Below, piece by piece: positions 14,354 through 41,844 of a stretch of 64,000 nt of DNA. A program made the translations under genes and the position numbers. Source of the stretch: Cryptosporidium bovis (lineage: Eukaryota; Apicomplexa; Conoidasida; Eucoccidiorida; Cryptosporidiidae); assembly GCA_009768925.2 (NCBI GenBank), contig VHIT02000054.1:124001-188000 (forward strand). The letters are read 5' to 3'. Numbering within the stretch: the first letter of the stretch is position 1; each line of letters starts with the position of its first letter. The notes beneath the pieces were generated by a model. That model worked only from the letters and a program-made list of their open reading frames with translations. It ran no database searches and had not been told where the DNA came from.

Positions 14354-17152
14354 ATGAGTACAGAAAGATCAACAATATCATATATATCTAAAAGAAAAGT
14401 GGAGGGTAAGGAGCTTAATTCAACATGTACAGGGACTGGAAAAAGGAGTATGAGCATAGATAACATAGAGAGTAATGAAATCTTGAAAAGCAGAGACTTT
14501 AATAACGCTATTTTGAGAAAAATATCTGGTATAAGACAAAGCGCAGGAACGAGCAATACATTCGGAAGATCAGAAAAGTTATTGTCAACGAGTGTATCAA
14601 ATGGAGTTTCTGGAAGTGGTGGAAGGACAAAGGCTAACGGAGTTTCTGAAGTTGGAATGAACAAAACATCTTCCTCTACGAGAAGTTATTCACACACGAA
14701 CTTAAAGACTGTGGAGTCTTTAAAAAGTAAAAATAAGACATTAACTGGAAAAGAAAAGGAGTCAACAACAAAACCTGCGCTTTCTACGTCAAAGCTATCG
14801 TTGAATTCTCTTTGTTCTGATAGAACAGAAGGAAGAATATGCAAAAAATTGAGTGAAAAAGAAGAAAGAAGGTATAATTACTGCCAGCTTTGTAAAGGAA
14901 GCGAGTCTATAAAGGAAGAACGGATTCCAGATGGTAACGTTAGTTCTGCATCAAAAGAGAGGACGACCAGTTGTTCAAGTAATAGCAATACAGTCACTAG
15001 TTGCAATTACAACACCGAGTCAAAGGTTAAAATTGAAGAAAGTGAGAGATCTAACTCTGTTGAATTTCACAGAAAGATATTTTCCACCAGAAAAAACGTA
15101 TCTTTGGACGATTTTCATACTGTTGCAATAATAGGTCAGGGCGGATATTCAATAGTAAGGCTGGTATTTGATCTATATACAGGATACGAATACGCACTTA
15201 AACAAGCAAAAAAAAGTCAAATAATAACGAGAATGATATCCTCATCACTGAGTGAAACAGAGAACTTGTCTGAAATCGGCATAAACTACAGTAAAACTGG
15301 AACTTTTATTGGCAAAGGAGCAGGAGTTGTTGGAAACATCAGCAATATGAGCTCTGGTTTAACAAATAGTGAAAATAAAGGTTTTTCTGGTTCTCAGTGT
15401 TTAACTGGCAAAAATGAGAGTTCACTTAACACAGGAATGATGCTCAACACAGAGATATCTCTTATGTATAGCTCAGACAGTCCGTGGATAAACAAATTGT
15501 ACTATTACTGGGAAGACTCCCACTTTTATTATATGTTGATGGAGTATATGCCTGGTGGTGATTTAATGAGGCACTTAATGGAACTCCACATATTTGAGGA
15601 GAAAATAGCAAAGTTTTACATAGCTGAGCTTTTGTTGGCCCTTGAATACCTAAATAATACAAGGGAATACATACACAGAGACATTAAACCTGACAACATT
15701 TTGTTAGATTCAAATGGACATATAAAATTGATAGACTTTGGGCTTTCTAAACAAATTAGGAGCAATGAAAAACAACTACCATTTGTTTCAAATGTTGTTC
15801 AAAACATCAATATCAAAACAACTGAAAATATTAATTACTTAAGTAACCATAATAAAAACGATGGCATTAATGGTGCAGAAATACATAACATACTTATACA
15901 TGACCCAAATTTTCACGCTGGAACTCCAGATTATATGGCACCTGAAATTCACAGAGGAGAGGCATATACTCTATCTGTTGACCTTTGGAGTGTTGGAATA
16001 ATTCTCTATGAAATGTTGTTCGGGGGTCCTCCTCTTTCAGATCCAGGACAAAATTCGTTAATTACGAGAAACAAAGTCATGAATTGGGAGAAGCACTTTT
16101 ATCTTCCTTCGGAACATCATAAATATTCACATGAAGCTATTGATCTAATTTGCTGCCTTATTTCAGAGCCTAATCAAAGAATGAAAACCGTAAAGGATGT
16201 CATGAAACATCCTTTTTTCAAAGACATAAATTTTAAAAATTTAAGACAGCAAAAACCACCAATTGTTCCAACAGTTAAACACAAACTGGACCACTCTAAT
16301 TTTGATAAATTCTCGATACAAGTTTTAATTAACTTTTACAACTCCGTAAATGCTGTCCCTAATATCCCAATTCCGTGTATTGCTGATGATATTCATTTTT
16401 CTCTCTCACAAATAAATAAAGCCTGTGTAGTGAATAAAAACAACGCTCTTGAAGCTAATGGTGCAGATATTGGAATCATTGGAAACAACTATATCAAAAA
16501 CCCTGGCATCTGCAACTCCACTAATGGAAGTAACAATGATACCCATAATGATTGTTCTGGTGGAAAGCCATTCAATTCGCACAATATTCTAGATGTCTCT
16601 CCAAAACTTAATTGTTCAAACAAATTATTTAATTCTATTTGTACTCCAAAGAGATCCTATCTACCATCTTTATTTTCGCCATCCTCGAACTCGACCTCCG
16701 CCTCCTCCTGGAAATACCATATCAACAACTACAATTCGCCTTTGTTACACACACACAGAAATCCCTCACCTATTCCAACTTATGTAAACAGTAATAATCA
16801 TGGAAATGGTAATATTATCATCAACCCTCCAACTCCCAATAAATCCCTCTCAAACTTCAACACAAAGGGACTCAATAATAATCACAACAACATTAATGGT
16901 TCTAACAGCTATTTACCTGAATCACTATGTAATGGACTCAAATCTCCAAATATTTTCGTTTCCAACACAAAAAGTAACTCCAAATCTAACGAAAACACCG
17001 TGTATAAAGCAAATTGTTATAGTAATATTTCTAGAAGCAACATTAACTCCGAAAACGTCTCTGCTAAACAAAAACTATCTATATTGGCTAATTCAACAAT
17101 ATCTAGAAATAATCAAAATATCATAAAACTGCTAAAAAAGGGTGTAGTATAA
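14354..17152 (+). CDS. NDR/LATS-like AGC protein kinase
   Basis: This 932-residue Ser/Thr kinase has a disordered N-terminus (1-245), a kinase core (about 250-640) and an Asn/Ser-rich tail. The core shows a glycine loop GQGGYSIV, ALKQAKK (catalytic Lys near 281), HRDIKPDN (near 440), DFG (near 460) and GTPDYMAPEI (near 522). The gap of about 55 residues between DFG and GTPDY and the post-core SNFDKF match the NDR/LATS branch of AGC kinases, which act with MOB proteins in morphogenesis and cytokinesis. Oddities: about 80 extra residues sit between the catalytic Lys and the helix-C Glu, the activation-loop positions before GTPDY are Phe-His rather than Ser-Thr, and I see no FxxF/Y-T hydrophobic motif. 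It could be a divergent AGC kinase of another branch. Confidence 0.82.
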   Translation: MSTERSTISYISKRKVEGKELNSTCTGTGKRSMSIDNIESNEILKSRDFNNAILRKISGIRQSAGTSNTFGRSEKLLSTSVSNGVSGSGGRTKANGVSEVGMNKTSSSTRSYSHTNLKTVESLKSKNKTLTGKEKESTTKPALSTSKLSLNSLCSDRTEGRICKKLSEKEERRYNYCQLCKGSESIKEERIPDGNVSSASKERTTSCSSNSNTVTSCNYNTESKVKIEESERSNSVEFHRKIFSTRKNVSLDDFHTVAIIGQGGYSIVRLVFDLYTGYEYALKQAKKSQIITRMISSSLSETENLSEIGINYSKTGTFIGKGAGVVGNISNMSSGLTNSENKGFSGSQCLTGKNESSLNTGMMLNTEISLMYSSDSPWINKLYYYWEDSHFYYMLMEYMPGGDLMRHLMELHIFEEKIAKFYIAELLLALEYLNNTREYIHRDIKPDNILLDSNGHIKLIDFGLSKQIRSNEKQLPFVSNVVQNINIKTTENINYLSNHNKNDGINGAEIHNILIHDPNFHAGTPDYMAPEIHRGEAYTLSVDLWSVGIILYEMLFGGPPLSDPGQNSLITRNKVMNWEKHFYLPSEHHKYSHEAIDLICCLISEPNQRMKTVKDVMKHPFFKDINFKNLRQQKPPIVPTVKHKLDHSNFDKFSIQVLINFYNSVNAVPNIPIPCIADDIHFSLSQINKACVVNKNNALEANGADIGIIGNNYIKNPGICNSTNGSNNDTHNDCSGGKPFNSHNILDVSPKLNCSNKLFNSICTPKRSYLPSLFSPSSNSTSASSWKYHINNYNSPLLHTHRNPSPIPTYVNSNNHGNGNIIINPPTPNKSLSNFNTKGLNNNHNNINGSNSYLPESLCNGLKSPNIFVSNTKSNSKSNENTVYKANCYSNISRSNINSENVSAKQKLSILANSTISRNNQNIIKLLKKGVV

Positions 17153-17452: not shown

Positions 17453-20400
17453 TCAGCATAGTGAGAAAAATGATTCCAACTTTTGACCATTAGTCACACC
17501 TATACAATTTTGAGAGGGGCCTATGTTTTTGAGAAACAAATACAGTTTATCTACAATCAAATCAATATCCTTAATTTCATCCTCCATTTTGAACGCCTTC
17601 GTAAGTCCTATTATCTGTTTTGGATTCATCATCTTTAACACCGTATCTTTAAGTGAACCGAAGCCTCTTCTTATTCTACCGACGTAAAATTCACCAATCA
17701 ACTTCTCAACTGCATTCCTTCTCAGCGCTTCACTCACTTTTAATATGGAGTTATCTTGTATGTAAAATTCTTCGTCTCTTCCCGGCTTCTTGTATACATC
17801 TATACCCAACAGTACCTTTCTCAATATATCTAATTCAGCATCGTACCTAAAATGATTAAATGCTGTTAATAGTAACGTATTTAATGTTGATAAAACAATT
17901 GACAATTTATATGTACTTTTTTTTATATCCTTAATGAAGTTTTTTACCCTTGTTCCCAGTGCTTTATGGGTTGAATGCTTCATTCTATAAAATCTTTGAT
18001 ACCCTTCCTTCCTTGTTTTAGGCAACAAATTCACTGCAAATTCATTTAGAGCTATTATTATTAATGTCTGCCTTACTGCTTTTTTTAGTGAGTCCGATAA
18101 CATATCGTATCCTGTCACTCTTATATCAGTATTTCTTATTTGAAACAATAAATCAACGAATAACTGCAATAAGTCGCCCATTTTACTTCCTCTAATCCTA
18201 CACCTGCATAGAGAAAACGAAGAAGAATCACGTCCCACAACTACAAAATGCGAATCACCACTTCTTATATATGGCTTTTTTTTGTTTTGTGATACATTTA
18301 CCCTAAACTGATCGCTAAATACGTTATTTTCTTCTTTTCTATAATTCTCAAAGTTGTCTAGAGTTCCCTCATTTTTGTTCTTTTCGTCAGCCTTATTACC
18401 TAATTCATCGCTTCTAATATCACTTTCTCCATATGATTCCCCATCCTCCAGTTCTGCCTCCAACTCACCCCTATGCATATTAGAATCGGAATCTATCAAA
18501 GCATTCAACTCTTTTATGTTTTCAGGGCTTATTGGAAAGTCTTCTTTTAATATCTGTGTATATGAACCGTAATATTCACTTATTATTTTTGATGTATGCT
18601 TCGAATATTTCTTCTTATAACTATTTGTTATTGTTTTTGAATTCAAAAATACAAAATCTCCGCTTTTTAGTACTTTAATATCATTTGATTCCATCATTAA
18701 AACATTATATTGTATCTCCTGCAACTCCGGTCTCAAATCTAATCTCACATTATCCAAAGAAGCTGTATACGAATAAAAAGCTTTTCTGAGCAACGCTCTT
18801 GATCCACTCAACTTTCTTCTTCTTTTTGAATGGCTATACCAGTGATTTATTGAAAAAGATAACGAACTACCTACTTCTGACAAGAAGTGACCTCTTCTAC
18901 TGCCTTTTATATCCCTTGCTATCTCGCGAAATTCATGTAATATTTGTGATTGAGATATTTTAGTTAATTTGTGATTTATTTGTTCCATTGCCTTTGTATT
19001 CGCTATTTTTCTTATTGCTGAATTAAACAAACTTGAATGATCATTAACCATGTCACATATTTTTATAGTTTCTCTTATATAATAGTTTATCTTGTCGCTA
19101 TTACTTATTAAACATGATTTATCTGGATCTACATATAACATCGTCTTTGAACTATCATTGCTTTCTCTGAAAATTCCATTTGACTCTTCATAATCAATGC
19201 GATTATCGTCCTGCAAATGATTGTTACTTGGTAATATTGTTACTATACTCGAATCCACTAACATTGGTATTAACAGTCTATTTATTGATATTAGTCTTTT
19301 ATTCGTATAACTTATATCATTAGATAATGCCTTTATTTTTGAACACATTCTTGATGCTAATTGTGTTCTTTTTAAAGATAAAATTGAACTTAAAGCCCTT
19401 ATTTGAGTGCCTAATTCATTTAATTCATTATTTTCATTCAATATTATGTTGTTATTGATCAAGTCTAATGTTGATGGACAGTTATTTTGCAACAATCTCT
19501 GCAAATTTGTATCCGAACTATTATCTATAAAAAAGTTTCCTATCAAATCTAACAGAGTGGTTGATACTTCCTCATATATTTCATTCTCTGTCAGGTTCTC
19601 AGCAGACAATATTTTCTTGTCGCTGCTAAAAATGCATAAATTTGAATGAATATCCACTGCTTTTCTTGAATTTTCATATATTTTAGATAGTCTAGTTTTT
19701 ATTTTGTCCTTATCGTCTGTAAATAACTTATACATCGATAATAACTCCGTTGGTATATCGCTACTATTATTTTCATCATTATCTGCATATCTATTATAAG
19801 AAGTACAGAATTGCTCTAATGAGTCCATATATATTTTTGTTTCCGTTAATATAACCAATTTTTCTATTTTTTTTGACTCATAATATCTATCTATTTCAAC
19901 TGTTAACTCTTTTATACCAGAAATTAACTCTTCACATATTGTTTTTATCGGAGACTTGTTATTCCCAAACCAGCTTTTCACATTGTTCTTTTTTTCTATG
20001 TCCCAATCTTTATTTACTATATCTAATAGGGTTCTTAGTGGATTTAATATTTTTATATATGGAATTTCGGGACACAAATCCACAAAATAATCAAACACAT
20101 TTTTCATATTTAATAAGTTATATAAAAACTTTTCACTATTAATTACTGGATATAACCTTATATTACCACCTTTGTCAGATCTTTTTCTGTTTAACAAATA
20201 CTTTATCTTGTTTAATAATTCTTCCAAATAATTCACCCTCAATGATATTTCCATACCAACAAAATCTACCTCTTTGTTCTTTTGTATCTCGTTAATTATT
20301 TGATCCTTTAGTAATAATATAAATTCATTTATCTTTGATACACAACTATCGTCACTTTTTGTTTGAATTAAACAATATATTATTTGTGATATATATTCTC

Positions 20401-20806
20401 CGAATTGCTCTAAATCAATATTAACATCATCAAACTCAAAAACGTTGTCCGTTAACAAGATGTACATTTGATTCATTAAATATAGAAACACCAATGCACC
20501 TTCGTTCTTTTGTTCTATTTTTATTTTTTCATAAATCGACGTCCATATCAACGATAATGATTCAAACGGAGTCACTATTGGGAACTGAGATGAAATCTGT
20601 AACATATTATTACTGAAAATATATACGTCGTTCTTTAACCGTTTCTTTTCATTGTTATCTATTTCTCCCACCCCAATTAAAACATTATTTAGATCTGCAT
20701 TGTCTAAGCTTTGTGAGCGAGAAAGATTTACCAATATTATTAACACCAGGATACACACTGTACTTAGTCCCCATTTTTTACTCATCTTACATATCCTAGC
20801 ATTCAT
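17453..20806 (-). CDS. large secreted protein of unknown function
   Basis: The product is 1117 residues from the first ATG at 20804-20806 (the open frame extends upstream only to a TTG). A later Met at 20785 is also possible. Residues about 13-30 (WGLSTVCILVLIILVNLS) form a signal peptide in either case. The rest is helical, Asn/Ile/Lys-rich, with an acidic segment (about 765-830) followed by a more basic, better-conserved-looking C-terminal 280 residues containing CRCRIRGSKMGDLL and KRRRKL-type patches. The chain ends FFSLC. There is no second membrane segment and no known domain. It is probably exported to a secretory organelle, the host interface or the vacuole, which I infer from the signal peptide alone. 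Confidence 0.8.
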   Translation of the reverse strand: MNARICKMSKKWGLSTVCILVLIILVNLSRSQSLDNADLNNVLIGVGEIDNNEKKRLKNDVYIFSNNMLQISSQFPIVTPFESLSLIWTSIYEKIKIEQKNEGALVFLYLMNQMYILLTDNVFEFDDVNIDLEQFGEYISQIIYCLIQTKSDDSCVSKINEFILLLKDQIINEIQKNKEVDFVGMEISLRVNYLEELLNKIKYLLNRKRSDKGGNIRLYPVINSEKFLYNLLNMKNVFDYFVDLCPEIPYIKILNPLRTLLDIVNKDWDIEKKNNVKSWFGNNKSPIKTICEELISGIKELTVEIDRYYESKKIEKLVILTETKIYMDSLEQFCTSYNRYADNDENNSSDIPTELLSMYKLFTDDKDKIKTRLSKIYENSRKAVDIHSNLCIFSSDKKILSAENLTENEIYEEVSTTLLDLIGNFFIDNSSDTNLQRLLQNNCPSTLDLINNNIILNENNELNELGTQIRALSSILSLKRTQLASRMCSKIKALSNDISYTNKRLISINRLLIPMLVDSSIVTILPSNNHLQDDNRIDYEESNGIFRESNDSSKTMLYVDPDKSCLISNSDKINYYIRETIKICDMVNDHSSLFNSAIRKIANTKAMEQINHKLTKISQSQILHEFREIARDIKGSRRGHFLSEVGSSLSFSINHWYSHSKRRRKLSGSRALLRKAFYSYTASLDNVRLDLRPELQEIQYNVLMMESNDIKVLKSGDFVFLNSKTITNSYKKKYSKHTSKIISEYYGSYTQILKEDFPISPENIKELNALIDSDSNMHRGELEAELEDGESYGESDIRSDELGNKADEKNKNEGTLDNFENYRKEENNVFSDQFRVNVSQNKKKPYIRSGDSHFVVVGRDSSSFSLCRCRIRGSKMGDLLQLFVDLLFQIRNTDIRVTGYDMLSDSLKKAVRQTLIIIALNEFAVNLLPKTRKEGYQRFYRMKHSTHKALGTRVKNFIKDIKKSTYKLSIVLSTLNTLLLTAFNHFRYDAELDILRKVLLGIDVYKKPGRDEEFYIQDNSILKVSEALRRNAVEKLIGEFYVGRIRRGFGSLKDTVLKMMNPKQIIGLTKAFKMEDEIKDIDLIVDKLYLFLKNIGPSQNCIGVTNGQKLESFFSLC

Positions 20807-23649: not shown

Positions 23650-26600
23650 ATGGGTAAAATAAAAGAAAAGAAATTTACGAGTCTAAAAAAGAGGAAAATA
23701 TTGTTATCACCACTTTTAATTATCAATGGTATAATAATAATAATAACACTAACCTCTATTAAAAAATGTAAGTACTTATTGGCAATACACTCTCAAATAC
23801 CTAAAAGTAATGAATACGCGTGGGGAAATGTAAAAGTATCGTTTTTTGAGTCAAAAGGAATTCCCAGCCCTAAATCCTACCTATCAGAAACCGAATATAG
23901 CAACTCCAATACAAGTGGTACTATGGAATCGGAGAGTGGCCAACGCGAAAATACACAATATTCACCTTCAGTACCTACATTTTCGTTGCCACAGACTTCA
24001 TTATCTGGAAACTCCAAACTACCTTTGCCATCACCTGAAGCGACGGATTATGGTAGTGATGGTCCGGTCTCCGGTTTTTCGGGTCAGAGATATCAAAAAT
24101 CAGGACTTCCTCTCCAGGACATTTCACATCTGGGATTTGAATCTTTATCATCACCGGATAATAAACAAGAGGAGGATTATGTGAATAGTTTAATGAGAAT
24201 AAATATGATTTATAATGTTAAAGAAAACAAATTTGAAAAAGATGAGCAGAAGATAGCATATGGATTTGGAGGAAAAGATGGGACTAAAGATCCGAAGAAT
24301 TATCTAATAAAGAAAGTTATACCTCAGGATGGAATCACGAAAAGACCACCACTCGAGTTAATTCATAGCGATGAGAAAAAGCATGAAATAGAGGATAGAA
24401 AAGAAGAGGAAAGTGTGGAGGAGGATGTGGAATTCATTCCACTTCAAATAGGACCGAAAATACCAGGTACTGAGACGGGTATAGAAGGTTTATCGCACAA
24501 AATATCATTAGATAAAGCTCCAAGGAGTCCACAAAAAAGGCAAGAAGAGTGGGAGTGTATTGTTTCGCAGATAGAAAGAGATAAAGTCGGTTGGAAAGTA
24601 GAAAGGGGTAGAATGAGATATAATTACATTCCAGGATTTTCTGACGTAGATCCATCTTTGTTTCCATTATGTGGTGATGCGAAAACACTGTACCAAAACT
24701 GTGTATTATCTTTAAAGCAACTAGAAGATAAATCCATAATAACACCTCCTTCAGGAGATGAAACGGAGGCAAATTTTTTGCGTGCAACCTTTTGTATATC
24801 CGCTTCAGTTTACTGTTATGCAGAATCAGCAATAGGAGATCCAGATTTACAACTATATTGGAACAGAGAGGTTAGAAGTATAACTGATCTTCTTGTATCA
24901 AAAGACCCAAATTTGGAGCTTCTTCAAATAGTGGGAGAGAGTCTCTCAAAGCAAAGCTCTTCGAAAAGTTTTGGAGGTCAAAAGGGAATGCTGGGAAAAC
25001 TTCCAAAATTTCTTCCAAACAAGCTTCCAAATCACAGCTTTGCTTTTGCGTCCACGAAGCTGGAGGTGTGCCCGAAAGGAGGTATTTCCGGAAGGTCTAA
25101 TACCGACTTCGAGTACGAAGGTGGGATAGACGCAATATTGGCAACAAGAGTTCACTCAATAGTTGTTGACGACTCGGAAATATGGACTATGTGGAGAGCT
25201 ATAGTTACACAAAAGGAAAGAGATCTGAACATGAATTTAAAAAGGTTTAAGGTATTCTCAAACTCATTTCCACTTAAATTTAACTCAGCTGTTAAACCGA
25301 CAAAGTTATCGGAGCTCAGAAACGTGTGTATAGAATTAATCAGAGATGGGATGAATGAGACTCCCCCTAGATACGAATTATTGCCACTAGCCAAACCAAA
25401 TACGGAAAAAGTCTTACATGAGTTTTGCAACTATGCTGCAGACTTTTATTTTGGAAATAGGCAATGGGAGGTTATATACCAAAAGTCAATGTTTTTGTCG
25501 AACATGGTTGAAGGTTTGCCGGAGCCGAGACCATATTCACCATTTAGATATTATGCAGGAGAAACATTTAATGATATGAGAAAGAATTGCTGTTCAGTAA
25601 TATTCGACTTGATACAAAGCAAGGTATTTCCGTATTTGTCAACTGGTCATTTCAGATATAAATCTAACAATTTTGATGGATCAAAATTAGAAAAATTCTG
25701 TCATATGGCAGCTAATGCTTACTTTAAAAGAGCCGAAGATCCAAATGACCAAACTAACATAAAGAATACTGGTTACTTTGACTTTACCCCAAACAAGTCA
25801 AAAGTTACCAATTATAAGACTTCTCCGCATCTATCTTTGGTTTATGAGGGAATGCAAGACTTGGAGAATATTCCCGGGCAATTTTCAGTTGGAAGCATAG
25901 ACGGAAGTTATAGCTATACTCCAAGATTTCCAAATTTGAAGCCTTCTTTGGTTTGTTGGGTCCAGTGGAGAGCTATATTAGACCAAAACAGGGAGGATCT
26001 AAATAAAAATATTGAAACTCCAACACATCTTCCGGAAGAGTTGCCTAAAGAGTGGAACATGCCTCAGTTTTCGAGATCCACCTTTATTATTGCGTGCTTT
26101 AGAATTATAAGAAAGTTGTATGGGGTCGGAAGTGTATCTTTCAGGTCAAAATCGTTGAATTCTAATGAAAGCGTGGATGACAAAAGTGAGAAAATCCTTT
26201 CTGATTTTTGCAAGGCAGCTTCAGGGCGTTATTTCGAGGGTATTTTTGATGAATACTCCCTAGAGAATCAGCTTAAAATACAGACAGATTCTGATTCTCA
26301 GTGGAATACAATCGTTGAAGTTATCATGCGTCAAGGAGAAAAACAGAAAAATAACAACATATTTTGGGTTTATCCAGTTCATCCTAGTAACTTTGAGAGA
26401 AGCAATACTAGGTTTGATGTGTATGGTGACAAGGAGGATGACAAGGATGAGATCAAGGAATTGGGATTCGAAAGCAGATGCCTGGAAGGACTTAGGACTT
26501 ACTATTCTACTCCTGAAAATGAGTTACCTAAAATGGAAGTAAACACTGAAGACGATTCATTGATTGATCTTGAGTTTAGGAAAGTTTGTAAAGAAGCAGG

Positions 26601-29600
26601 TGACTACTTTTTTGGAGCAATTGAATGGATTAGAATGTACAGGGCTTCAACTAATATTAATGATGCCTTTGGAAATTTACAGCAAGATCTAAATACTGCA
26701 CCAATAGTTACCGGATTACCCAGAAAGAGACCTATTAAGCCACTTAAATACAAGGGAGCTGGTAGGATAACACTGTTTAGGGATTACTGCTTTGCCTATA
26801 TTTGGAACCTTTGGAGGAGTGGAAACGAAAACAATCTAAGGATTTCAGGCAAACTTTTTTCTTCAAATATGACTGATAAGGAAGACAAAAAGGCTTTACT
26901 TGAACACTGGTGCACATCCGTTGCAAATGAGGCTTATAATATTAACTACAAACTTCCGATTGAAGAAAAGAAAAGACTTGGAATTACTGATTTGCATCCA
27001 AGAATGGATCCTCAAACATCTCTTTCAGTAGTTGAGAGTGAGGAGGAAAGAGAGAACGGTGAATTGCACGAGCCAGAACTCGGAGAAAGAATCCACTTCT
27101 CATTTGGGGATGCAACCTCTCAATGGAATATGATTCTGAGCCAACTAGAAGTAGATAAAAGAAGAAGCATCAAGAGAATCATCTGGCTTCCGGAGTATCC
27201 CGAAATAAAGAATATATTTCCTGGTCCTGTAGAGAGAAGAGACTTTGTGAGAGCTTGTGTAAAAATTATAGACAAACTCAATGAAAAGAGTTTGGTTGAG
27301 TGGGGAATAGTTTCGCCAGAATACCAAGGAGTGGTAATGAGAGAGTTTTGTTCTGACGCTTTTTACAATGGTTATGAACTTTCAGAAGATAGAAGAAATG
27401 TTATTTCGGCGAAAAGCAGCGAAAGAGAGGTGAATAGAGGCTTACTTATTGAATTCTTAAAGTATATGCATGTCAATCAAATGGACGTAAGAAAATGGGT
27501 ACTTTTTTACTTAAATGAGAACATAAACTTAAATTATGCAATAAGTTGGGCCTTAAACGAAGACAACTGGTCTTTTTTAGAAAGTTATTTCCATCAGTCT
27601 CAACTAAACGAGCCGGAGAACTTTGAAAATTTGTTTGAGGAAGTTAGGGAGAGAGTAAGGCAAATGGGTGGGTTTTTGAGTCCGGGAGAGGAGAGTGGAT
27701 TCTTTTCAGATTCAAATTCCTCACTAGCAAGGGAGAAACTTTGGAAAGCAATTTATAATCAGATGTACATGGACATTTTGATGGGAAGGCAACAGAGAAT
27801 TGTGAATCTCCCACTAAAACCTCCGGATTTTTGGTTAGGTTCTAAGAATGAAGACGAATTTCCCTTGGATTGTGAGAGAGTAATAACTAGATTGTTGTTT
27901 CAAAGTGGAGAAGAAAATAAAGGTTGGGATACAAATTCGGAAAAAAGAGAAGTAAAAAGTCTAAAAGACATCCTATTGGCTACGAGATTAATATCAAATC
28001 AGGACCAAACAGATAAAGATATTATCAAATCTTATTGTGAGGATGTATTGTTAGAAATAAGCAACAAAAGAGGGTATTCCATATTTAAGGGAACTGGATT
28101 TAGCTATCCAGGATCAATATTAGAGTTTGAGAGAAACAGGCAATGGAATATAATATCAAATTTGGGAAAATATTCGAAATACCAATTAAGAGATTCAAAA
28201 GGAGGTATAGGAGCAATTTCTAAAATAGATAATATACCTGGGTTCGTCAGATATACACTGTTCCGTGGAAGTTATGATCCAGAGGAATTTGTAACCCAAT
28301 GCGAGATAGCACTGGAGTTTCTTTATAGTGATCCAAGTATCCCAACACATAAAAGAATAACATTTCCAGGTTCAATTGATGACAATGATATTATGAAAAA
28401 AGGAGAAGAGTCAGACAATAAAAAAAAAATAATAACTGAATACTGCGAGATAGCCTCAACATACGTATTTCAAGAGAATCCAGAGGATGAGTTGTTGGAC
28501 GAGGATTCATTAGAAGAGATTTCAATAATGAACGACCTAGACACTGTGAGCAGAAAGTTCAGGTTAAAAAATCCTTTGGGATTGGACTATAATAAAAGGT
28601 GGAATCACATAATAGAACTTGCTAAAAAGAGAATATCAGAGGAAAAATATTTGAGAATGAACAGGGTAATGAAAATAGACTCAAATTGGCTTAAAAATAC
28701 ATATCCAAAAATAGCAGGGGAAGATCTCAAAAGAGCATTTAACTCTAAAGAGAATAATCACTTAGCTAGTTTTGTATTGGTCTCATATGAACTTTTTTCT
28801 GCAATAATGATGGGAAAAGAGGGGTTATCTGAAGGATCAAACAAGGATAAGTTTGAATTCTTTTCCAGAAATTCACTATTACAGTTTTGCAGGGATGTTT
28901 GTTACAAGTACTTTACAGATGAAGCAAAAGGAGACGTCGAATACGAGAATGACAATAAATCTGCCACAGAAAATGCCTTAATATATGACTTAATTGCAAC
29001 AAGGCCAAGAATGGGCCCAAATCCTAAAGATCCACTATATGAATTGTATCCAGAACAAGGAGAAGAGGTACCAGAGTTAAATAGTTTTAACATGGATCAG
29101 TATATTACATCAAAATGGGAGATAATAAATAAAAATATTGGCGAAAATGATTCTATTAGGGAAAGTTTAAGAAAGGAAATAATGGATGATCTTTTTGCTG
29201 CAGAAACTAACTTAATTAACTTCCAAGATGACGATAAAAACAAAAACATTCTTTGGGCCCCAGCTAAAGAATATCCTTGGAAACACCATGATATACGAAA
29301 AGCTAATGATATGGAATCTATCTTAAATAAACTTCATCCACTAAACAAGGACAAAGATATGGTTTTATCTGGGGATACATTAAAACATATGAAGGCTATA
29401 TTTGGAGATAATATTGCCGACATTGCAAAAACAACTATAATACCCGAGATTCCAACTGTAAAACCTGATAGAGAGAAAATTATGGAAAAACGTACCTTAG
29501 GAAATGCAAACTTGTCTGAGGATGATTTGCATTTGGGTGAAAGATTACTTCCTCTGGGTAACTTCGGAGAGGGTGCTCAAGTTAAGAGAATTAACGTTGG

Positions 29601-31131
29601 TGGTAAATCTGCAACAACACCAAAAGGGTCAAGTAGAACAAAATCCACATCTTTTTCACGTCTGTCCCCTGGAGAATTTGAAAGATTTAAAAAGGCAAAT
29701 GAGGACTTCAAAAGTTTAGTTGAGGGAAAAGTTATCAATGTAGGAAGAAGTGCAGATACTATTGAAGAATCTGTCTCTACAACGTCTTTGCCTGAGGAAG
29801 TATATATAAGAAAGGGAATGAAACCAAGAGATAAGACTGAAAAGAAAGGTGTCAAAAAAAAACCAGTCTTGTTTGACTACAAGAATGAGGAAAAAGAAGA
29901 AAGCTCGTTGAAATCTGGAAAAGAGTCTGAGACAGATAAATATGAAGATGATAAACTTGCAGATAGGGAGTGGACTGTCATATCTCAACTAATAAAACTG
30001 GTAGGTGAGAGTGAAGGAGGAAAGTTTGTGGTAAATATTCCAATAGAAAGACCAAGAAAGCTGTATCCAAAGGCTATGGGAAATATGAGAGGAATGAGCG
30101 AAGGATGTATTAGGGTATTGTTGAATTCAAGGTATAGATCTGAGACAGGAGCAAGAATTGTTGGAAAAACAAGAGAAGAGAGGAAAGTAAATGCAACAAT
30201 CTACTGTAGAAAGGCAGCAGAAGTGTTCTATGAGTCAACAACTAGGGGTGGACTGGGAGGTGAGTTTGTTCCACCAAAGGAATTTATTGGTCTTCCTGGT
30301 TTTCAAAGCTCAATAAGATACATTGGTGGCTCTAAGGCAACTAGAGGAAGAGGTAACAAAGTTTTTATTGGGGAGAGTTCTTCAAATCCACTAGGGAAAG
30401 AACTGGGCCTAAGGCCTATAAACAAAGAATCTGCAAGACTAAGGAAAGCAGTTGGTGGGGTTAGAGGTGCATTTGGAGTCAAAGCCAATATGGACTATAA
30501 TCCTTTTACAGGGAAAGGAGGTGTTTCTAGTCCACAACTTCAAGGAGAACAAATTTCAGGTGCAGGATTCTCAGTTAAAGTTAAATCATCTCTACTTGAA
30601 AGAAAATTTGCAGAAACACCAGGTTATATGGGGTATCCAGGCACTAAAGGTATAACAGAAACTGGATTATTGTACCCGGGAGATGATATTATTACTGAAC
30701 CGAATTACTATTATGAGGAAAGAGGAGGAAAAGACGGGGCTCTTGCCCCTTATTCTGATTTAAATAAGTATGTTAATATGAAACCTCATAGTGGCCCGGG
30801 ATCTGGTGACCCTAAAATAGGGGAGCCTCCCAAACTAAATAAAGCAGGAATTCCTATTATTAAACATATACCCACTACCTTTGATGATAAAGAGGAATCA
30901 AATATCAAAAAACAATTCTTAAATAGAGCAAGTAGTTATTCAAGAGAACGAGATTCGTTATCAAGTAGTACGATTCACTACAATGAAGAATTTATTGGTC
31001 AATATACAGGACGAGGTAGAGATTTAGAAAGGAAAGAGGATAGAAAAGAAAGGAAAAGGGAAAGAAGGAAGGTAGAAAGAAGTAGTAGCAATAGTAGGGG
31101 TGATAAAGATAGAATACAAAAACGAAATTAA
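23650..31131 (+). CDS. giant secreted protein with twelve W...C...C repeats
   Basis: The product is 2493 residues from the first ATG (23650). The frame opens two codons earlier at a GTG. A basic start and a hydrophobic stretch (about residues 17-38) form a signal peptide or signal anchor. A Ser/Pro-rich region (60-290) precedes a long array of divergent repeats of 90-285 residues. Each begins with a Trp-x2-Ile motif (Trp at about 301, 515, 606, 773, 885, 993, 1159, 1365, 1499, 1651, 1823 and 2108), has a Pro-rich middle, a first Cys in a helix and a second Cys in a closing [FYW]-C-x-x-A-x4-[YF] block. Ten of twelve copies keep both Cys. The C-terminus is Gly/Lys-rich and ends in a very basic tail. 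I know no family of this kind. A disulphide per repeat and an extracellular or vacuolar location are inferred. Confidence 0.88.
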   Translation: MGKIKEKKFTSLKKRKILLSPLLIINGIIIIITLTSIKKCKYLLAIHSQIPKSNEYAWGNVKVSFFESKGIPSPKSYLSETEYSNSNTSGTMESESGQRENTQYSPSVPTFSLPQTSLSGNSKLPLPSPEATDYGSDGPVSGFSGQRYQKSGLPLQDISHLGFESLSSPDNKQEEDYVNSLMRINMIYNVKENKFEKDEQKIAYGFGGKDGTKDPKNYLIKKVIPQDGITKRPPLELIHSDEKKHEIEDRKEEESVEEDVEFIPLQIGPKIPGTETGIEGLSHKISLDKAPRSPQKRQEEWECIVSQIERDKVGWKVERGRMRYNYIPGFSDVDPSLFPLCGDAKTLYQNCVLSLKQLEDKSIITPPSGDETEANFLRATFCISASVYCYAESAIGDPDLQLYWNREVRSITDLLVSKDPNLELLQIVGESLSKQSSSKSFGGQKGMLGKLPKFLPNKLPNHSFAFASTKLEVCPKGGISGRSNTDFEYEGGIDAILATRVHSIVVDDSEIWTMWRAIVTQKERDLNMNLKRFKVFSNSFPLKFNSAVKPTKLSELRNVCIELIRDGMNETPPRYELLPLAKPNTEKVLHEFCNYAADFYFGNRQWEVIYQKSMFLSNMVEGLPEPRPYSPFRYYAGETFNDMRKNCCSVIFDLIQSKVFPYLSTGHFRYKSNNFDGSKLEKFCHMAANAYFKRAEDPNDQTNIKNTGYFDFTPNKSKVTNYKTSPHLSLVYEGMQDLENIPGQFSVGSIDGSYSYTPRFPNLKPSLVCWVQWRAILDQNREDLNKNIETPTHLPEELPKEWNMPQFSRSTFIIACFRIIRKLYGVGSVSFRSKSLNSNESVDDKSEKILSDFCKAASGRYFEGIFDEYSLENQLKIQTDSDSQWNTIVEVIMRQGEKQKNNNIFWVYPVHPSNFERSNTRFDVYGDKEDDKDEIKELGFESRCLEGLRTYYSTPENELPKMEVNTEDDSLIDLEFRKVCKEAGDYFFGAIEWIRMYRASTNINDAFGNLQQDLNTAPIVTGLPRKRPIKPLKYKGAGRITLFRDYCFAYIWNLWRSGNENNLRISGKLFSSNMTDKEDKKALLEHWCTSVANEAYNINYKLPIEEKKRLGITDLHPRMDPQTSLSVVESEEERENGELHEPELGERIHFSFGDATSQWNMILSQLEVDKRRSIKRIIWLPEYPEIKNIFPGPVERRDFVRACVKIIDKLNEKSLVEWGIVSPEYQGVVMREFCSDAFYNGYELSEDRRNVISAKSSEREVNRGLLIEFLKYMHVNQMDVRKWVLFYLNENINLNYAISWALNEDNWSFLESYFHQSQLNEPENFENLFEEVRERVRQMGGFLSPGEESGFFSDSNSSLAREKLWKAIYNQMYMDILMGRQQRIVNLPLKPPDFWLGSKNEDEFPLDCERVITRLLFQSGEENKGWDTNSEKREVKSLKDILLATRLISNQDQTDKDIIKSYCEDVLLEISNKRGYSIFKGTGFSYPGSILEFERNRQWNIISNLGKYSKYQLRDSKGGIGAISKIDNIPGFVRYTLFRGSYDPEEFVTQCEIALEFLYSDPSIPTHKRITFPGSIDDNDIMKKGEESDNKKKIITEYCEIASTYVFQENPEDELLDEDSLEEISIMNDLDTVSRKFRLKNPLGLDYNKRWNHIIELAKKRISEEKYLRMNRVMKIDSNWLKNTYPKIAGEDLKRAFNSKENNHLASFVLVSYELFSAIMMGKEGLSEGSNKDKFEFFSRNSLLQFCRDVCYKYFTDEAKGDVEYENDNKSATENALIYDLIATRPRMGPNPKDPLYELYPEQGEEVPELNSFNMDQYITSKWEIINKNIGENDSIRESLRKEIMDDLFAAETNLINFQDDDKNKNILWAPAKEYPWKHHDIRKANDMESILNKLHPLNKDKDMVLSGDTLKHMKAIFGDNIADIAKTTIIPEIPTVKPDREKIMEKRTLGNANLSEDDLHLGERLLPLGNFGEGAQVKRINVGGKSATTPKGSSRTKSTSFSRLSPGEFERFKKANEDFKSLVEGKVINVGRSADTIEESVSTTSLPEEVYIRKGMKPRDKTEKKGVKKKPVLFDYKNEEKEESSLKSGKESETDKYEDDKLADREWTVISQLIKLVGESEGGKFVVNIPIERPRKLYPKAMGNMRGMSEGCIRVLLNSRYRSETGARIVGKTREERKVNATIYCRKAAEVFYESTTRGGLGGEFVPPKEFIGLPGFQSSIRYIGGSKATRGRGNKVFIGESSSNPLGKELGLRPINKESARLRKAVGGVRGAFGVKANMDYNPFTGKGGVSSPQLQGEQISGAGFSVKVKSSLLERKFAETPGYMGYPGTKGITETGLLYPGDDIITEPNYYYEERGGKDGALAPYSDLNKYVNMKPHSGPGSGDPKIGEPPKLNKAGIPIIKHIPTTFDDKEESNIKKQFLNRASSYSRERDSLSSSTIHYNEEFIGQYTGRGRDLERKEDRKERKRERRKVERSSSNSRGDKDRIQKRN
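24550..30237 (+). repeat. twelve-copy divergent protein repeat (W-x2-I ... C ... C)
   Basis: The repeat starts, given as the first base of the Trp codon, are 24550, 25192, 25465, 25966, 26302, 26626, 27124, 27742, 28144, 28600, 29116 and 29971. Closing blocks read for instance FCNYAADFYF, FCHMAANAYF, FCKAASGRYF, YCEIASTYVF and YCRKAAEVFY. The first Cys lies in a helix such as NVCIELIRDG, RACVKIIDKL or EGCIRVLLNS. The tenth copy lacks the first Cys and the eleventh lacks both. The copies are too divergent to show as DNA repeats. Confidence 0.75.
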
Positions 31132-31283: not shown

Positions 31284-32824
31284 CTATGGGCCATCATTAC
31301 AGGTAATTACAAGAAACATTCGAGTTGCCTGGATAGGCATTCCTTTCATTTGATAAATAATTGATATTGTGCCATCACATCTGGAAAGGATAATATTGGA
31401 TAGTTCATTATTTAGAGTACGAGGAAAAGCCTCAGCCACTCCAATCTCTTGGCCATATTTAACACGTCTATTTCTACCTATAGTTTTAGAGAAATGTACG
31501 ATTATAGGTTCTGCTGCGAAATAAGCAGCAAATACGGAAGTTTTGATATTTAATGGCACATAAGTGTTCGTATCGAAACGACCATAACCATTTCCATTTT
31601 GCATATAAGGTCCAGAAAACTGGTTCGAGTATAAATTAGGAACTTGGTTTCCACTATAATTAGGCCCATTATAACCATTATCAAACTCGTTTACATTTGT
31701 ATGCTCTCTCAAATTGAACAATCTTCTTTCACTTTTCACTGAAGAAACAGAAATGACTGTTCTACCTTCCTTATTCTTGTTTTCAGGTGAAATATTATAA
31801 TCAACGATTAAGTTTCTAACTCTTTCATTTTCATCTAGACTTGGTGACACTTTGTTACCAGATCCATAGAATAGGTATTCAAAATTATTTTGCTCATTAT
31901 CTAAAGGAATCGATTTACTATGGCCATTCTCTTTATTATTGCTACTTTTTTTCTTTTTTTGTCTGTCAAAGTATTTGCTCCACCAGTGTTTATGAATTTT
32001 TTTATACTTTCCACTTTCATTATCTAATACTAAATCGACATCTTTATTTTCCTTGTTTTTTGAATTATTCTTTAGATATCCTTTTTTTTCCTTTTCAAAA
32101 TCGTGATTCTCTTTTTCCTTGATTTTTTTTGAATTCTGATGTTTTCTACTTGCATATTGATGAATTCCAAATCTAGCAATATGGCTTGCTAATCTTGCAG
32201 AAGAGGTTATGATGAAATCCTTATTATCAAATGGATCAACTGGCTCCGAGTTCAAAGCAGCGGCATGTAAATTTAAATATTCATCATCAGATGCCTCAAA
32301 TACTCCTATTTACATAATTCAGTCAGTTAAATGATTATTTTGTTAAATTTATATTGTTGTCATTCAATTTATTTAGTATTTTCCAGCATAAATTGATGTC
32401 AAAATCACAATTATTGCTTAAATCTATAGTTTATATACGCAATCCTTGAAGAAATACACTATTGCCATTTTTTCGCTGGAAAAAGTAAATTTTTAAAAAA
32501 ATATGTACTTACCTTTCCCCCATAAATTACTATTACGTACACTTTTAGGTATTCTTAATCCCGAACAATACAATTCCTCACAAATCCAATCTGAGAGCGC
32601 AGGCCAATTCCTCTGTATAACTTCTAAAGAACTTTCTTCTCCACATGCCTTGTTCTAATTTTTGATATTAGACAGAAATATTCAAGTTTGGAAATATTGA
32701 AGAGTTAAGTGATTTTGAATTAAAAGTTTTACATGCATTTTATCATTATTTCATGCATGTTAGAGCCTATAGTCATTACCTCTTGTAAAACAAAAAATAA
32801 CATAAGTGACAAAATTGACACCAT
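31284..32824 (-). CDS. secreted protein encoded by three exons
   Basis: Exons are the complements of 32780-32824, 32513-32654 and 31284-32305, giving 402 residues. The last exon opens only at a TTG, so splicing is needed. Exon 1 encodes MVSILSLMLFFVLQE, a signal peptide, with an in-frame stop just upstream. Exon 2 ends AAAG before a consensus GTAAGT, and exon 3 follows a TAG acceptor. The frame is continuous across both junctions. The mature protein has a Cys/Trp-containing start (NKACGEESSLEV, then NWPALSDWICEELYC), a conserved-looking block (HAAALNSEPVDPFDNKDFI), a Lys-rich linker, a Tyr/Asn/Gly-rich middle and a hydrophobic C-terminal domain. No family is recognised. It lies tail to tail with the giant repeat protein, whose stop is 152 bp away. 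Confidence 0.75.
32306..32512 (-). other. intron 2 of the three-exon secreted protein gene
   Basis: The 207-nt intron starts with GTAAGT and ends with TAG. A TTAACTGAC element 18-26 nt before the acceptor could serve as branch point. It interrupts a Gly codon after its first base. Confidence 0.75.
32655..32779 (-). other. intron 1 of the three-exon secreted protein gene
   Basis: The 125-nt intron starts with GTAATG and ends ATTAG. It falls between codons (phase 0), just after the signal-peptide exon. Two ATGCAT boxes lie inside it. Confidence 0.65.
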
Positions 32825-37314: not shown

Positions 37315-38250
37315 ATGAATTCATCAAAGGTCAGAACAATAGCTGCTATAACCGGTGGTTTCGCAGTTGTTGGTGCTTTACTTTATTTCTTATTTAGAGA
37401 AGATAAATCCGACGAAGAAAATAAAAGAGAGGAGCCATATGAATTGGGTAGAGATACTACTTGCAACAAAGGTATATTTGGTAGTTCTGTTTCAGTGAGG
37501 AGTGTGGAGGAGGCAAAGAAAGAGATAAAAGAGGATAATAACGGTAACATTGGAATCACTGCAGATGATCATAATGTAAATACGGAGAACGCAGAAAAAT
37601 CACTGGAAAGTTATACAAAAGAAGACATGTTGCATATATTGGACGAAATACTGGAGAGTCAGGATTGCTTAAGGGGTGTAATGAAGAGACTGACGAGTGA
37701 ATTTATTGCAAATCCTCCGAGAAACTTTCAGGAATGTTATGACAAAGTAAAGAATGCTTCTCCACAGGATCCTTTGGACAAGAGAAAAATTTCGCTTTCC
37801 GAGTTTGATAAATTAGTTGAAAGGTTCTATACTGATGATAAAGTAAGTAGTACCATTGAGAAGATTATGGGAATAAATGGTTCTATGAGCTCCGATAATG
37901 ACAATGTTCAAACTATGAAAAAAATTGAGAATATAGACAATAAGCAATTAATTAATATTAATGGATTTATGTTAGAGGAATTAAAAGAATTTGTTGGTCA
38001 GTATTCAAATGTCAGTAATAAACATATATATGATGTCAAAACATTAACTATTGCTGCACAGGTATGGGTTGGATCCAAAGTTGAAAAACGATTTAGTCTT
38101 AATTCTGACGATATTGAAACTGCCATGTTAATTCGTTCTCAATCTCTTAAAGATGATCCTGAATTTGGGCGTATTAGTTTACAAATGCAAGCCACAATGG
38201 AGCAACTTATTGGTTCTCCAGCGCCTTCAAATCTTCCCTTCTCTATTTAA
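37315..38250 (+). CDS. N-terminally membrane-anchored protein of unknown function
   Basis: The 311-residue product begins MNSSKVRTIAAITGGFAVVGALLYFLFRED. A hydrophobic, Gly/Ala-rich helix at about residues 9-27 is followed by a charged region, which looks like a signal anchor with most of the chain on the cytosolic side. It could also be a mitosomal or ER tail-out arrangement. The remainder is acidic and helical, with a short Cys pair (DCLRGV, ECYDKV) and a conserved-looking C-terminus (DDIETAMLIRSQSLKDD, then QATMEQLIGSPAPSN). No family is recognised. Confidence 0.75.
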   Translation: MNSSKVRTIAAITGGFAVVGALLYFLFREDKSDEENKREEPYELGRDTTCNKGIFGSSVSVRSVEEAKKEIKEDNNGNIGITADDHNVNTENAEKSLESYTKEDMLHILDEILESQDCLRGVMKRLTSEFIANPPRNFQECYDKVKNASPQDPLDKRKISLSEFDKLVERFYTDDKVSSTIEKIMGINGSMSSDNDNVQTMKKIENIDNKQLININGFMLEELKEFVGQYSNVSNKHIYDVKTLTIAAQVWVGSKVEKRFSLNSDDIETAMLIRSQSLKDDPEFGRISLQMQATMEQLIGSPAPSNLPFSI

Positions 38251-38691: not shown

Positions 38692-41600
38692 TTAATTTCT
38701 TGAGTTTAAACCTAAATCATTATGTTTTTTAATGACTTCAATCATGAGATTTGAAAAATCACGGGCAAACTTTTCACCATTGCACAAATTTGAGTTAATA
38801 AGAGTTTTTCTAAGACTAAAACGTAGAAAAGAGAGTTTTCCTGTATTTTTCGCGAGATTGGTAGCAACACTTACAAACTGGTCTTTTGAGTAAGTAATTA
38901 GTTCTGTGAGATTTAGGTTATATAGTATTGACTTTCCAACATTTTGAGAATGAAAAGAAATAATTTCAGTATTTAACTCTGGATTATCACAGTTACTATA
39001 GATTATATTCGGGTTAATATTATCATTTAAACAAAATGTAACTAAAGGAACTCCCATAAAGATACATTCAAATGTAGTTGTAGTGCCAGAATAAGGAAAC
39101 GTGTCTAATGATATGTCAATTTTGTTATATAAATCCAAATGTGAGTAATAAGTATCACTTAATGGTAAAAAAATTAATCTTTCTTTTTCAATTCCGTATC
39201 TTTCGCCAAAAATATTCATGTAGAATGAATGACATTTAGGTGAAGTGAAAGCTTTAGACTTTAATATGAGACGACTATTATTTACCTTTTTCAGCACTCT
39301 ACCCCATAAATCAATAGTTATGGGATGTAATTTAGTTAATCTGTTGAACGATCCAAATGTGATGTAACCATTTCTATTAAAGGGTAAGTCACCTATATTT
39401 GGGTATTCAGTATGTGGGACTGAGAAACACAAAAAACTCTCCGGAAGATAAATAAGTTGTTCAGAATATTTTTGTTTTGTACTCGTTGGATCAGAAATAC
39501 TATCCGTGATTCTATAATCAATATTCCTTAAACCAGTAGTATTTGGATAACCTATCCAGGAAATCTGTATTGGTGAGTTTCTTAATGCAAAAACCTCAAG
39601 ACTATTATTTACTGTATGGCCACTTAGATCAAATAATATATGGATTCCATCTTCTCTAATTAGTTTTGAAATTGAAACAACGTCTTTTCCACGTATATTC
39701 CTCCAATTTTCAGGTTTTACAAGTTTTTTAAAACTGTCAGAAAGATAATCATGATGGGGTGAATTATCGTAAATATAAACAATGAATTTAACACTGCCGT
39801 TGCCTTTACTGTCAGCCTGATTTATCTCTGAAATATACTTTAATGGAGAATAAATAAAAAATCCCACTGCATGGTGGAAAAATTCAGCTCCGACGAAACC
39901 AAGTTTAATTTCACATGAGGAATTATTGCTTTCGTCAATATTTGGAACAGTTGCTATTGGAATAATTTTATCAAGATTTTCTTTTGTTTCTTTATATATT
40001 TGTGTCAAGTAATCGCCCCATTCCAGAGAAATACTTATCATATCTTCGTAATGAATATAGTATTCTGTATTTAGAAGCCAGCGAGCATCTGGGGGAAAAT
40101 ATGCATTGTCCTTGGCATTTTCAGATACAATTAAGGATTTTGGATTGTCACAAATTTTCAAGCAAAGCTCACCATTAACAACAATATCTTTTGAATAATC
40201 TTTAGATTTATTTTTAATTGAATCAATGTTAATTGGAATGAAGTAGTTTAATATATAAACTAGATTTTGATAGGCAAGAATATTGTTTTTGTTTAAGTTA
40301 ATCGCAATTAAAAAACAATTTTTTGCAAAAACAAAATTACCAACGTCCCTGTAAAGAACTCCAAGGTTGTTGAATACATCCGAATTATTGGAGTCGATTT
40401 GAATACATTTACTGAAGTATTCAAAGGCTAAGTCAATTTTTCCAGTTGTATTATAAAGTGCAGCAATAATATTCAGAGAATTAATGCATTTCGGATTAAT
40501 GTTAACTATTTTCTCGTAACATAATATAGATTCTTTAACATGACCTATTTTTCTCAAAAATATTCCAAAATTATTATAAGTGTTCACATTTAATGGATTT
40601 AAATTTATGGACAATTCAAAACACCAAATTGCCTTATTTTTTTTCCCCAATTCATTATAAACAATAGCAAGGTCATTATAAACATCAGAAGAATTCGGGA
40701 TGTACATTATGGCCTTCTTTAATAATGACTTGGCTTGGACCAAATTATTATGATTAACTTGAATTGCTTTGTTGCACAATAATTTGGCATAATATATCCT
40801 ATAATTATCGTTAAATGGTGATTTATCAACAATTCTTTCCATCATTTCCATGCTTGTATCAATATTATTTTCAATTTCAAAGTAGAGTCTCAAAAGTGAA
40901 TACTCCAACTCAAAGTTCGTACATACTCCACCAGACTCGAAACAACTCTTTAAAATTGAAATGCATTCGTTATAGGTATCTTGATTCTTCAACTTAAATT
41001 TACCATTGCTTGTTTCCTTGTCTGTTTTGGTAAGTATGCTTTCGTTTGGAGAACAGTTGAGATTGACTCCATACAGAGTTAATATTGATCTCACAAAACA
41101 ATTAATTATGTGTGAATAATATGGAAACAATGTTGAGTAATGTTTATGGATGTCTAAATCACTTTGGTTATCTATGTCCTTATTTTTGTCGTCACATAAA
41201 CTACTTTTATTTGGGATTTCATTAATAGACATCCTGAGGCTTTTTAAAAGCAGTTCAACATTTGGGTACTTCTTCCCAACATAATCTAATACAGTGAAGG
41301 AGTAATCGTAATTTTCAAGTAATATTTGAATCATTACAAAAGACATAATGAGAGAAACATATTCAATCAAATCACCTGTGTAATATGAGTTGAGATCACT
41401 TAATTCACAATAGTCTTCACTTGATTCAAATTCCAGTTGCTTTGTAAAAATATAGTGTTTCACTATTTCAAGCAATAGTGAAACAAGTTTGTTGTTTTTG
41501 ATGGAGTTAAGTTCATGATATATAAAAATCATTTTAACAATTATTTTTCCCAAAAATAATGAATCGCTTTTAATATTTAAATCCATCAGTTTTGCTATTC

Positions 41601-41844
41601 TGTTTGAATTGTCAATGCACTTTTCACAGCAATATAAGCCAACTAATTCAGAATAAATGTCCATTAACTCTTTAACGTCTTTCACTATTTCTATCGATGC
41701 CAAGCAAAATAACATAATTTTAGAGTTGTCCACTTTTTCATTAATTACATTTCTATTTGTTATTAGTTGCATGGTTGTATTAGGGTTTGGAGTGCTATAA
41801 TTGGCACCTTCCTCGTAATCACAAAAACATAGTGATTCTTTCAT
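38692..41844 (-). CDS. SPY: SPINDLY-type protein O-fucosyltransferase (TPR-GT41)
   Basis: The 1050-residue protein has a poorly conserved N-terminus (1-270), tandem tetratricopeptide repeats (about 300-530, for example SSDVYNDLAIVYNELGKKNK and SDVFNNLGVLYRDVGNF) and a GT41 catalytic half (about 640-1045). Visible catalytic features include FVGAEFFHHAVGFFIYSPL, WIGYPNTTGL, FGSFNRLTKLHP and DTFPYSGTTTTFE. GT41 covers O-GlcNAc transferase and SPINDLY. The end LCNGEKFARDF resembles plant SPINDLY, and the Toxoplasma orthologue is an O-fucosyltransferase that modifies Ser-rich nuclear-pore-associated proteins, so I prefer SPY. About 30 extra residues interrupt the C-terminal catalytic lobe after GVPLVTF. 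The acting place is the cytosol and nucleus. Confidence 0.9.
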   Translation of the reverse strand: MKESLCFCDYEEGANYSTPNPNTTMQLITNRNVINEKVDNSKIMLFCLASIEIVKDVKELMDIYSELVGLYCCEKCIDNSNRIAKLMDLNIKSDSLFLGKIIVKMIFIYHELNSIKNNKLVSLLLEIVKHYIFTKQLEFESSEDYCELSDLNSYYTGDLIEYVSLIMSFVMIQILLENYDYSFTVLDYVGKKYPNVELLLKSLRMSINEIPNKSSLCDDKNKDIDNQSDLDIHKHYSTLFPYYSHIINCFVRSILTLYGVNLNCSPNESILTKTDKETSNGKFKLKNQDTYNECISILKSCFESGGVCTNFELEYSLLRLYFEIENNIDTSMEMMERIVDKSPFNDNYRIYYAKLLCNKAIQVNHNNLVQAKSLLKKAIMYIPNSSDVYNDLAIVYNELGKKNKAIWCFELSINLNPLNVNTYNNFGIFLRKIGHVKESILCYEKIVNINPKCINSLNIIAALYNTTGKIDLAFEYFSKCIQIDSNNSDVFNNLGVLYRDVGNFVFAKNCFLIAINLNKNNILAYQNLVYILNYFIPINIDSIKNKSKDYSKDIVVNGELCLKICDNPKSLIVSENAKDNAYFPPDARWLLNTEYYIHYEDMISISLEWGDYLTQIYKETKENLDKIIPIATVPNIDESNNSSCEIKLGFVGAEFFHHAVGFFIYSPLKYISEINQADSKGNGSVKFIVYIYDNSPHHDYLSDSFKKLVKPENWRNIRGKDVVSISKLIREDGIHILFDLSGHTVNNSLEVFALRNSPIQISWIGYPNTTGLRNIDYRITDSISDPTSTKQKYSEQLIYLPESFLCFSVPHTEYPNIGDLPFNRNGYITFGSFNRLTKLHPITIDLWGRVLKKVNNSRLILKSKAFTSPKCHSFYMNIFGERYGIEKERLIFLPLSDTYYSHLDLYNKIDISLDTFPYSGTTTTFECIFMGVPLVTFCLNDNINPNIIYSNCDNPELNTEIISFHSQNVGKSILYNLNLTELITYSKDQFVSVATNLAKNTGKLSFLRFSLRKTLINSNLCNGEKFARDFSNLMIEVIKKHNDLGLNSRN

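Follow-up and report, generated by a model that had tools for sequence, protein, structure and literature searches.

The window analysed here is a stretch of 64,000 nucleotides from Cryptosporidium bovis (contig VHIT02000054.1, positions 124,001 to 188,000), and it contains, at 23650-31131 on the forward strand, one uninterrupted open reading frame of 2493 amino acids, as the original prediction had stated. A search of 5.8 billion proteins yielded 3067 candidates, of which eight were retained as relatives, the orthologue being listed once per Cryptosporidium species. Identities to the target were 94% in C. xiaoi, 79% in C. ryanae, 54% in both C. hominis and C. ubiquitum, 53% in C. canis and in one further relative, 52% in C. 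felis and 48-49% in C. muris. Residues 1-46 (23650..23787) form a hydrophobic stretch that, from its hydropathy, is likely a signal peptide or signal anchor, with a clear cleavage motif absent. It is followed by a variable, low-complexity N-terminal region (aa 47-298; 23788..24543), and only 4% of columns across aa 1-290 are invariant among the nine orthologous sequences. Similarly variable are a linker at aa 1946-2107 (29485..29970; 7% invariant) and the C-terminal tail at aa 2205-2493 (30262..31128; 11%), which has a basic end.

Three genes in the window tie the locus to chromosome 1 of C. parvum. The O-GlcNAc transferase cgd1_1300 (1032 amino acids; PMC9713705) corresponds to a 1050-residue TPR/glycosyltransferase frame at 38692-41844, the half ABC transporter cgd1_1350 (PMC3368497) to the frame at 51821-54115, and the kinase cgd1_1220 (PMC3227725) to a putative counterpart at 14354-17152 that was matched as a kinase only. 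Gene order agrees with the C. parvum numbering at all three, and when genes were counted as open reading frames of at least 120 amino acids, plus one spliced-looking minus-strand gene (31284-32309) and minus one antisense frame, each anchor gave the same position for the target. By this count the C. parvum orthologue should be cgd1_1250; a literature search for this tag, and for the locus tags of other species, found no mention of them. Six other frames in the window, of 311-1117 amino acids, had no Pfam match at E<=0.001 (4036-4989 +, 10119-11378 +, 11739-13436 -, 17456-20806 -, 37315-38247 + and 58509-60077 +).

The central part of the protein is built from repeats. Twelve units had been predicted, of which ten (units 1-9 and 12) were recovered by profile comparison and two (units 10 and 11) were not. 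Their starts, of the form W-x2-[I/V/L/M], lie at the places predicted. All ten lie on the forward strand: unit 1 (aa 301-396; 24550..24837), unit 2 (aa 515-605; 25192..25464), unit 4 (aa 773-866; 25966..26247), unit 7 (aa 1159-1245; 27124..27384), unit 8 (aa 1365-1475; 27742..28074) and unit 9 (aa 1499-1612; 28144..28485) are of A type, unit 3 (aa 606-697; 25465..25740), unit 6 (aa 993-1100; 26626..26949) and unit 12, the tenth supported unit (aa 2108-2200; 29971..30249), are of B type, and unit 5 (aa 885-992; 26302..26625) is the weakest of those supported. Profiles identified every unit, with additional evidence from the unit tree (units 3, 5, 6 and 12) and the structural models (units 2, 5 and 12). 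Of the predicted layout, the Trp and the two Cys (Cys1 and Cys2) are invariant over the ten units, and the Ile and Pro nearly so, while the remainder is a tendency only. The module is named WCC here, after its Trp-Cys1-Cys2 signature.

Support for the repeat came from several comparisons. One profile per claimed unit, built over the nine sequences, was compared with every other using hhalign, and units 1-9 and 12 were joined by significant links (probabilities up to 98, compared with at most 5 for reversed-profile controls). Many pairs scored below 30, so the units are linked as a network rather than all against all. Profiles from which one unit had been left out recovered nine of the ten units at 7.3-29.8 bits, while any stretch outside the units reached at most 0.3 bits, and the full unit profile never exceeded 3.8 bits on 200 shuffled copies of the target. 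Unit 5 scored only 0.9 bits when left out; it is accepted because it matches unit 6 (hhalign probability 97) and has a counterpart in a second giant gene on contig C42, described below, with whose fifth unit it clusters in the tree (support 92/78). Throughout the nine orthologous sequences, each of the 20 paired Cys and 10 unit Trp positions is unchanged, except that C. canis is gapped at C1203, and the claimed units contain 24-49% invariant columns overall. Unlike the other units, unit 1 carries two additional Cys (C303 within helix 1 and C389 where helix 3 ends); both are invariant in the nine sequences and may form a second disulphide.

Claimed units 10 (aa 1651-1760; 28600..28929) and 11 (aa 1823-1945; 29116..29484) gave no significant match to the unit profiles, scoring 16.7 against 15.2 for the reversed control (over the last 19 columns only) and 9.3 against 8.9, respectively, and the count is therefore ten rather than twelve. 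Claimed unit 10 nevertheless has a three-helix pattern in the AlphaFold model (helix pLDDT roughly 70-84), and could thus be a decayed unit, perhaps one that has taken on another role. It is also the most conserved of the claimed units (49% invariant) and keeps an FC..VC..YF ending, without Cys1. A helical insert between units 7 and 8 (aa 1246-1364; 27385..27741) likewise ranks among the more conserved stretches of the target (41% invariant); the unit profile found no match in it, and a gap of similar size occurs at the equivalent place in the C42 paralogue (114 versus 112 aa in the target).

Two AlphaFold models were built from nine-sequence alignments, covering aa 288-1110 (mean pLDDT 55.3, pTM 0.36) and aa 1145-2210 (45.0 and 0.25). 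An AlphaFold model had been proposed as a check on the repeat. When the helices are mapped onto the residue numbering, Trp, Cys1 and Cys2 fall in helices 1, 2 and 3, respectively, in all ten supported units; overall confidence is low, so that the arrangement of the domains cannot be read from either model. Confidence is good in units 1, 2, 3, 6 and 12, the last being the best modelled (blocks of about 73-86 pLDDT across most of the unit); units 4, 5, 8 and 9 are modelled poorly, with values mostly below 50-60. Helix 3 of unit 2 extends into helix 1 of unit 3 (aa 579-615), and a continuous helix also joins units 5 and 6 (aa 969-1001). At both junctions all nine sequences have a spacing of 13 residues between Cys2 and the Trp that follows, a value that recurs at the 2-3 junction of the C42 paralogue. 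Structural comparison returned nothing above noise.

The repeat is old, as had been predicted. In a tree of the ten units from nine sequences, nine of the ten formed single clades (support 96/94 or better), which indicates that the expansion predates the sampled genus; the exception, unit 3, was not separated from unit 6. When the units of the C42 paralogue were added, units of the same rank in the two proteins paired at six of ten positions (with starred support at two); the remaining four positions gave no resolved grouping, three of these falling in a well-supported B class (units 3, 6 and 12; 97/96). The C42 units form long branches, on whose placement the tree program issued a warning. 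Spacing between successive units also agrees, with gaps of 115, -2, 69, 13, -4, 53, 112, 19 and 490 in the target and 129, -6, 153, 20, 21, 78, 114, 16 and 354 in the paralogue. Together, the grouping by rank and the shared spacing suggest that a ten-unit protein preceded the gene duplication, and the layout appears to predate both that event and the sampled species of the genus. The duplication itself also seems to precede the divergence of C. muris from the other species, in which case a C42-type paralogue would be expected throughout the genus.

The original prediction held that the domain had expanded in one gene, a view that the rest of the C. bovis genome contradicts. The target protein and single units served as queries against the assembly (9.06 Mb, 43 contigs), and the stretches around the C42 match and two weaker ones were then examined using a profile trained solely on the target and its orthologues. 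Among 390 open reading frames, nine carried Trp, Cys1 and Cys2 in order under this profile; these nine, all family members, matched at E<=10, none of the other 381 did so, and none of the 390 reversed frames matched at that threshold. As the stretches were chosen around matches, nine is a lower bound for the family. The eight further genes comprise one collinear ten-unit paralogue, five clustered on contig C2 and two on other contigs. The second giant (C42 32797-38961 -, 2055 codons) matched the profile at E 3e-90 and, in the assembly search, the target protein in four collinear segments (best E 1.8e-26). The C2 cluster consists of 65551-69930 + (E 1.1e-19), 60288-65414 + (3.8e-14), 75738-79382 - (9.5e-12), 79614-84608 + (2.4e-6) and 70390-72159 + (1.3e-5), and the remaining two lie at C7 36927-41762 + (5.6e-12) and C43 207719-210085 + (9.2e-6). 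The C7 protein and that encoded at C2 79614 also resemble each other, sharing 25% identity across ~900 aligned aa (E about 1e-69).

An iterated profile found 43 units in the nine frames (10, 10, 5, 5, 4, 3, 3, 2 and 1 per frame). Cys1 is present in 42 of 43 units, Cys2 in all 43 and Trp in 39 of the 40 units in which that column is occupied, counts that are biased upward because the units were selected by a profile containing those columns; the sole unit without Cys1 has a Cys one position further on. Eight of the nine proteins have a 13-residue hydrophobic window of >=2.0 near the start Met and the ninth reaches 1.92, although this is a weak test, as 12 of 40 other frames of >=200 aa also pass. 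Two long frames adjoining the C2 cluster (L028:2-4936 -, 1645 aa, cut off by the edge of the stretch; L022:1733-3937 -, 734 aa) have starts resembling signal peptides and contain about 2% Cys, while the profile matched no unit in them; they are either secreted neighbours with no relation to the family or members too diverged to be recognised. The paralogues are known from one genome, that of C. bovis; the large protein database reported only orthologues of the target, in searches that required shared 5-letter words and similar length. With at least eight other genes carrying it, the WCC module looks like a little-noticed building block among the secreted proteins of this parasite.

The original prediction also knew of no named family with this layout, which holds for the curated libraries but not entirely for GenBank. 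Neither Pfam nor the PDB sequences yielded a match to the whole target protein at E<=1, the ten units scanned singly against Pfam at the same threshold gave only a chance match to PF24143 (one of ten units, E 0.1), and the nine whole orthologous proteins had none at E<=0.1. No curated family covers the module. However, the C. felis orthologue (P0007) is named 'putative Secreted Protein (CpLSP family)' in GenBank, which suggests that annotators may already have grouped some such genes. Literature searches found no use of 'CpLSP' with Cryptosporidium, and the sole match to 'large secreted protein' was a paper on heparin and EF1-alpha.

In the interpretation we favour, with moderate confidence, the nine or more large WCC proteins are disulphide-clamped helical scaffolds or adhesins that act in an oxidising compartment outside the host cytosol. 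Each module, of about 95-120 aa, would consist of a helix 1 bearing the Trp, which packs the core, a Pro-containing loop, a helix 2 with Cys1, a second loop and a helix 3 with Cys2. A Cys1-Cys2 disulphide formed in the ER would lock helix 2 to helix 3, and such a bond is the likeliest reason for both Cys being kept together (as seen in 42 of the 43 units of the nine genes). Tandem modules, joined by loops or by continuous helices (2-3 and 5-6), would form a rigid rod of many domains whose ends are disordered. After entering the secretory pathway, the proteins would remain in an oxidising compartment, passing from an apical or granule organelle to the vacuole, the parasite surface or the host-parasite interface, where the repeated modules, by analogy with tandem-domain adhesins and scaffolds of other parasite proteins, could provide multivalent binding to membrane, parasite proteins or the host surface. 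Placing them at the vacuole or interface is a guess. Both have been described as layered assemblies of granule proteins whose composition is incompletely defined (PMC13241007; PMC12782386). A search for localisation, expression and proteomic data on the target gene found none.

Delivery of WCC proteins into the host cytosol as effectors is one alternative, given that other secreted families have exported members, such as MEDLE2 (PMC8687662) and the MVP family (PMC7618952). However, Cys pairing this strict points to an oxidising site, and the target shows age and conservation (48-49% identity to C. muris). In addition, a 2026 preprint describes MEDLE2, ROP1 and most effectors studied as highly disordered, with folded reporter fusions impairing trafficking (PMC13419397). 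As the WCC proteins are likely secreted, folded, probably disulphide-braced, repetitive and old, a structural or adhesive role fits them better, and cytosolic delivery appears unlikely. The giants could also be constituents of the oocyst wall or another coat, where Cys-bearing repeats would be cross-linked or packed to make a protective layer, and they do combine predicted secretion, large size, repetition and a capacity for disulphides. Having exactly two Cys per unit, seemingly paired internally, does not resemble the Cys-rich oocyst wall proteins (COWPs). The C. parvum oocyst-wall proteome includes large uncharacterised proteins, but cgd1_1250 is absent among the top 20 of its table (PMC9508764), and we would assign only a small chance to a wall function.

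Least probable of all is that the two Cys bind metal, haem or lipid, or are catalytic, instead of bonding with each other: beyond the existence of two invariant Cys per unit nothing points to such a site, and apart from W, C1 and C2 no residue is invariant across the ten units, leaving no further His, Asp or Cys that a metal site might use. A different type of alternative is that WCC is simply the family that annotators already call CpLSP, with a domain definition held outside the libraries searched. The name on the C. felis orthologue favours this, while the label was not found in the literature on Cryptosporidium and has no Pfam model; we regard the equivalence as a tentative possibility, ahead of the other alternatives. 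In a further reading, speculative and rather improbable, WCC proteins form a superfamily of structural proteins evolved by Cryptosporidium for its unusual interface with the host (the feeder organelle, the dense band and the base of the vacuole). The two ancient ten-unit giants would then serve as long rods that cross-link, and the clustered members, which are shorter and evolve faster, would act as adaptors.

Cryptosporidium ranks among the leading causes of diarrhoea in children. What its vacuole and interface are made of has been described as poorly understood, and at least nine large, apparently secreted WCC proteins, including two ancient ten-unit giants, provide a concrete candidate set, with the unit profile as a means of finding the remaining members. 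Folded proteins of this type should lend themselves better to expression and mapping than do the disordered effectors that have been investigated to date, and even if their function proves ordinary, WCC gives a domain definition absent from curated libraries.

Short motifs give the WYLE, MEDLE, SKSR, FLGN and GGC families of Cryptosporidium their names. The WYLE, MEDLE, SKSR, FLGN, FGLN, NFDQ and GGC strings were found in none of the nine C. bovis WCC frames, and the eight orthologues of the target contain isolated strings (SKSR once in P0007, FGLN once each in P0004, P0006 and P0008, and NFDQ once in P0004). Like these secreted multigene families (Table 1 of PMC8687662), the WCC genes are genus-restricted, encode a predicted signal peptide and are partly clustered. 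In contrast to them, WCC proteins contain a module that is folded and repeated, and the gene analysed here is old, conserved and apparently present as a single orthologue per species. The CpLSP label sits on a direct orthologue of the target. We file WCC as an undescribed folded module in a genus-specific secreted multigene family.

Outside the genus, spectrin-type repeats are tandem three-helix units with a conserved Trp in the first helix and a continuous helix between neighbours. The low-confidence models suggest a similar pattern in WCC, with tandem three-helix units, a helix-1 Trp and a continuous linking helix at two junctions; WCC differs in its two invariant Cys per unit, long loops and linkers of 13-490 aa between most units; the spectrin repeat Pfam model had no match in the ten units or the nine whole proteins. 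Plasmodium DBL/CIDR domains, and the modules of other adhesins, are secreted, tandem, disulphide-braced and helical. Pfam reported no DBL-type domain in the target, its units or its orthologues. WCC resembles these Plasmodium modules in working principle, as a predicted case of secreted, tandem helical modules braced by disulphides.
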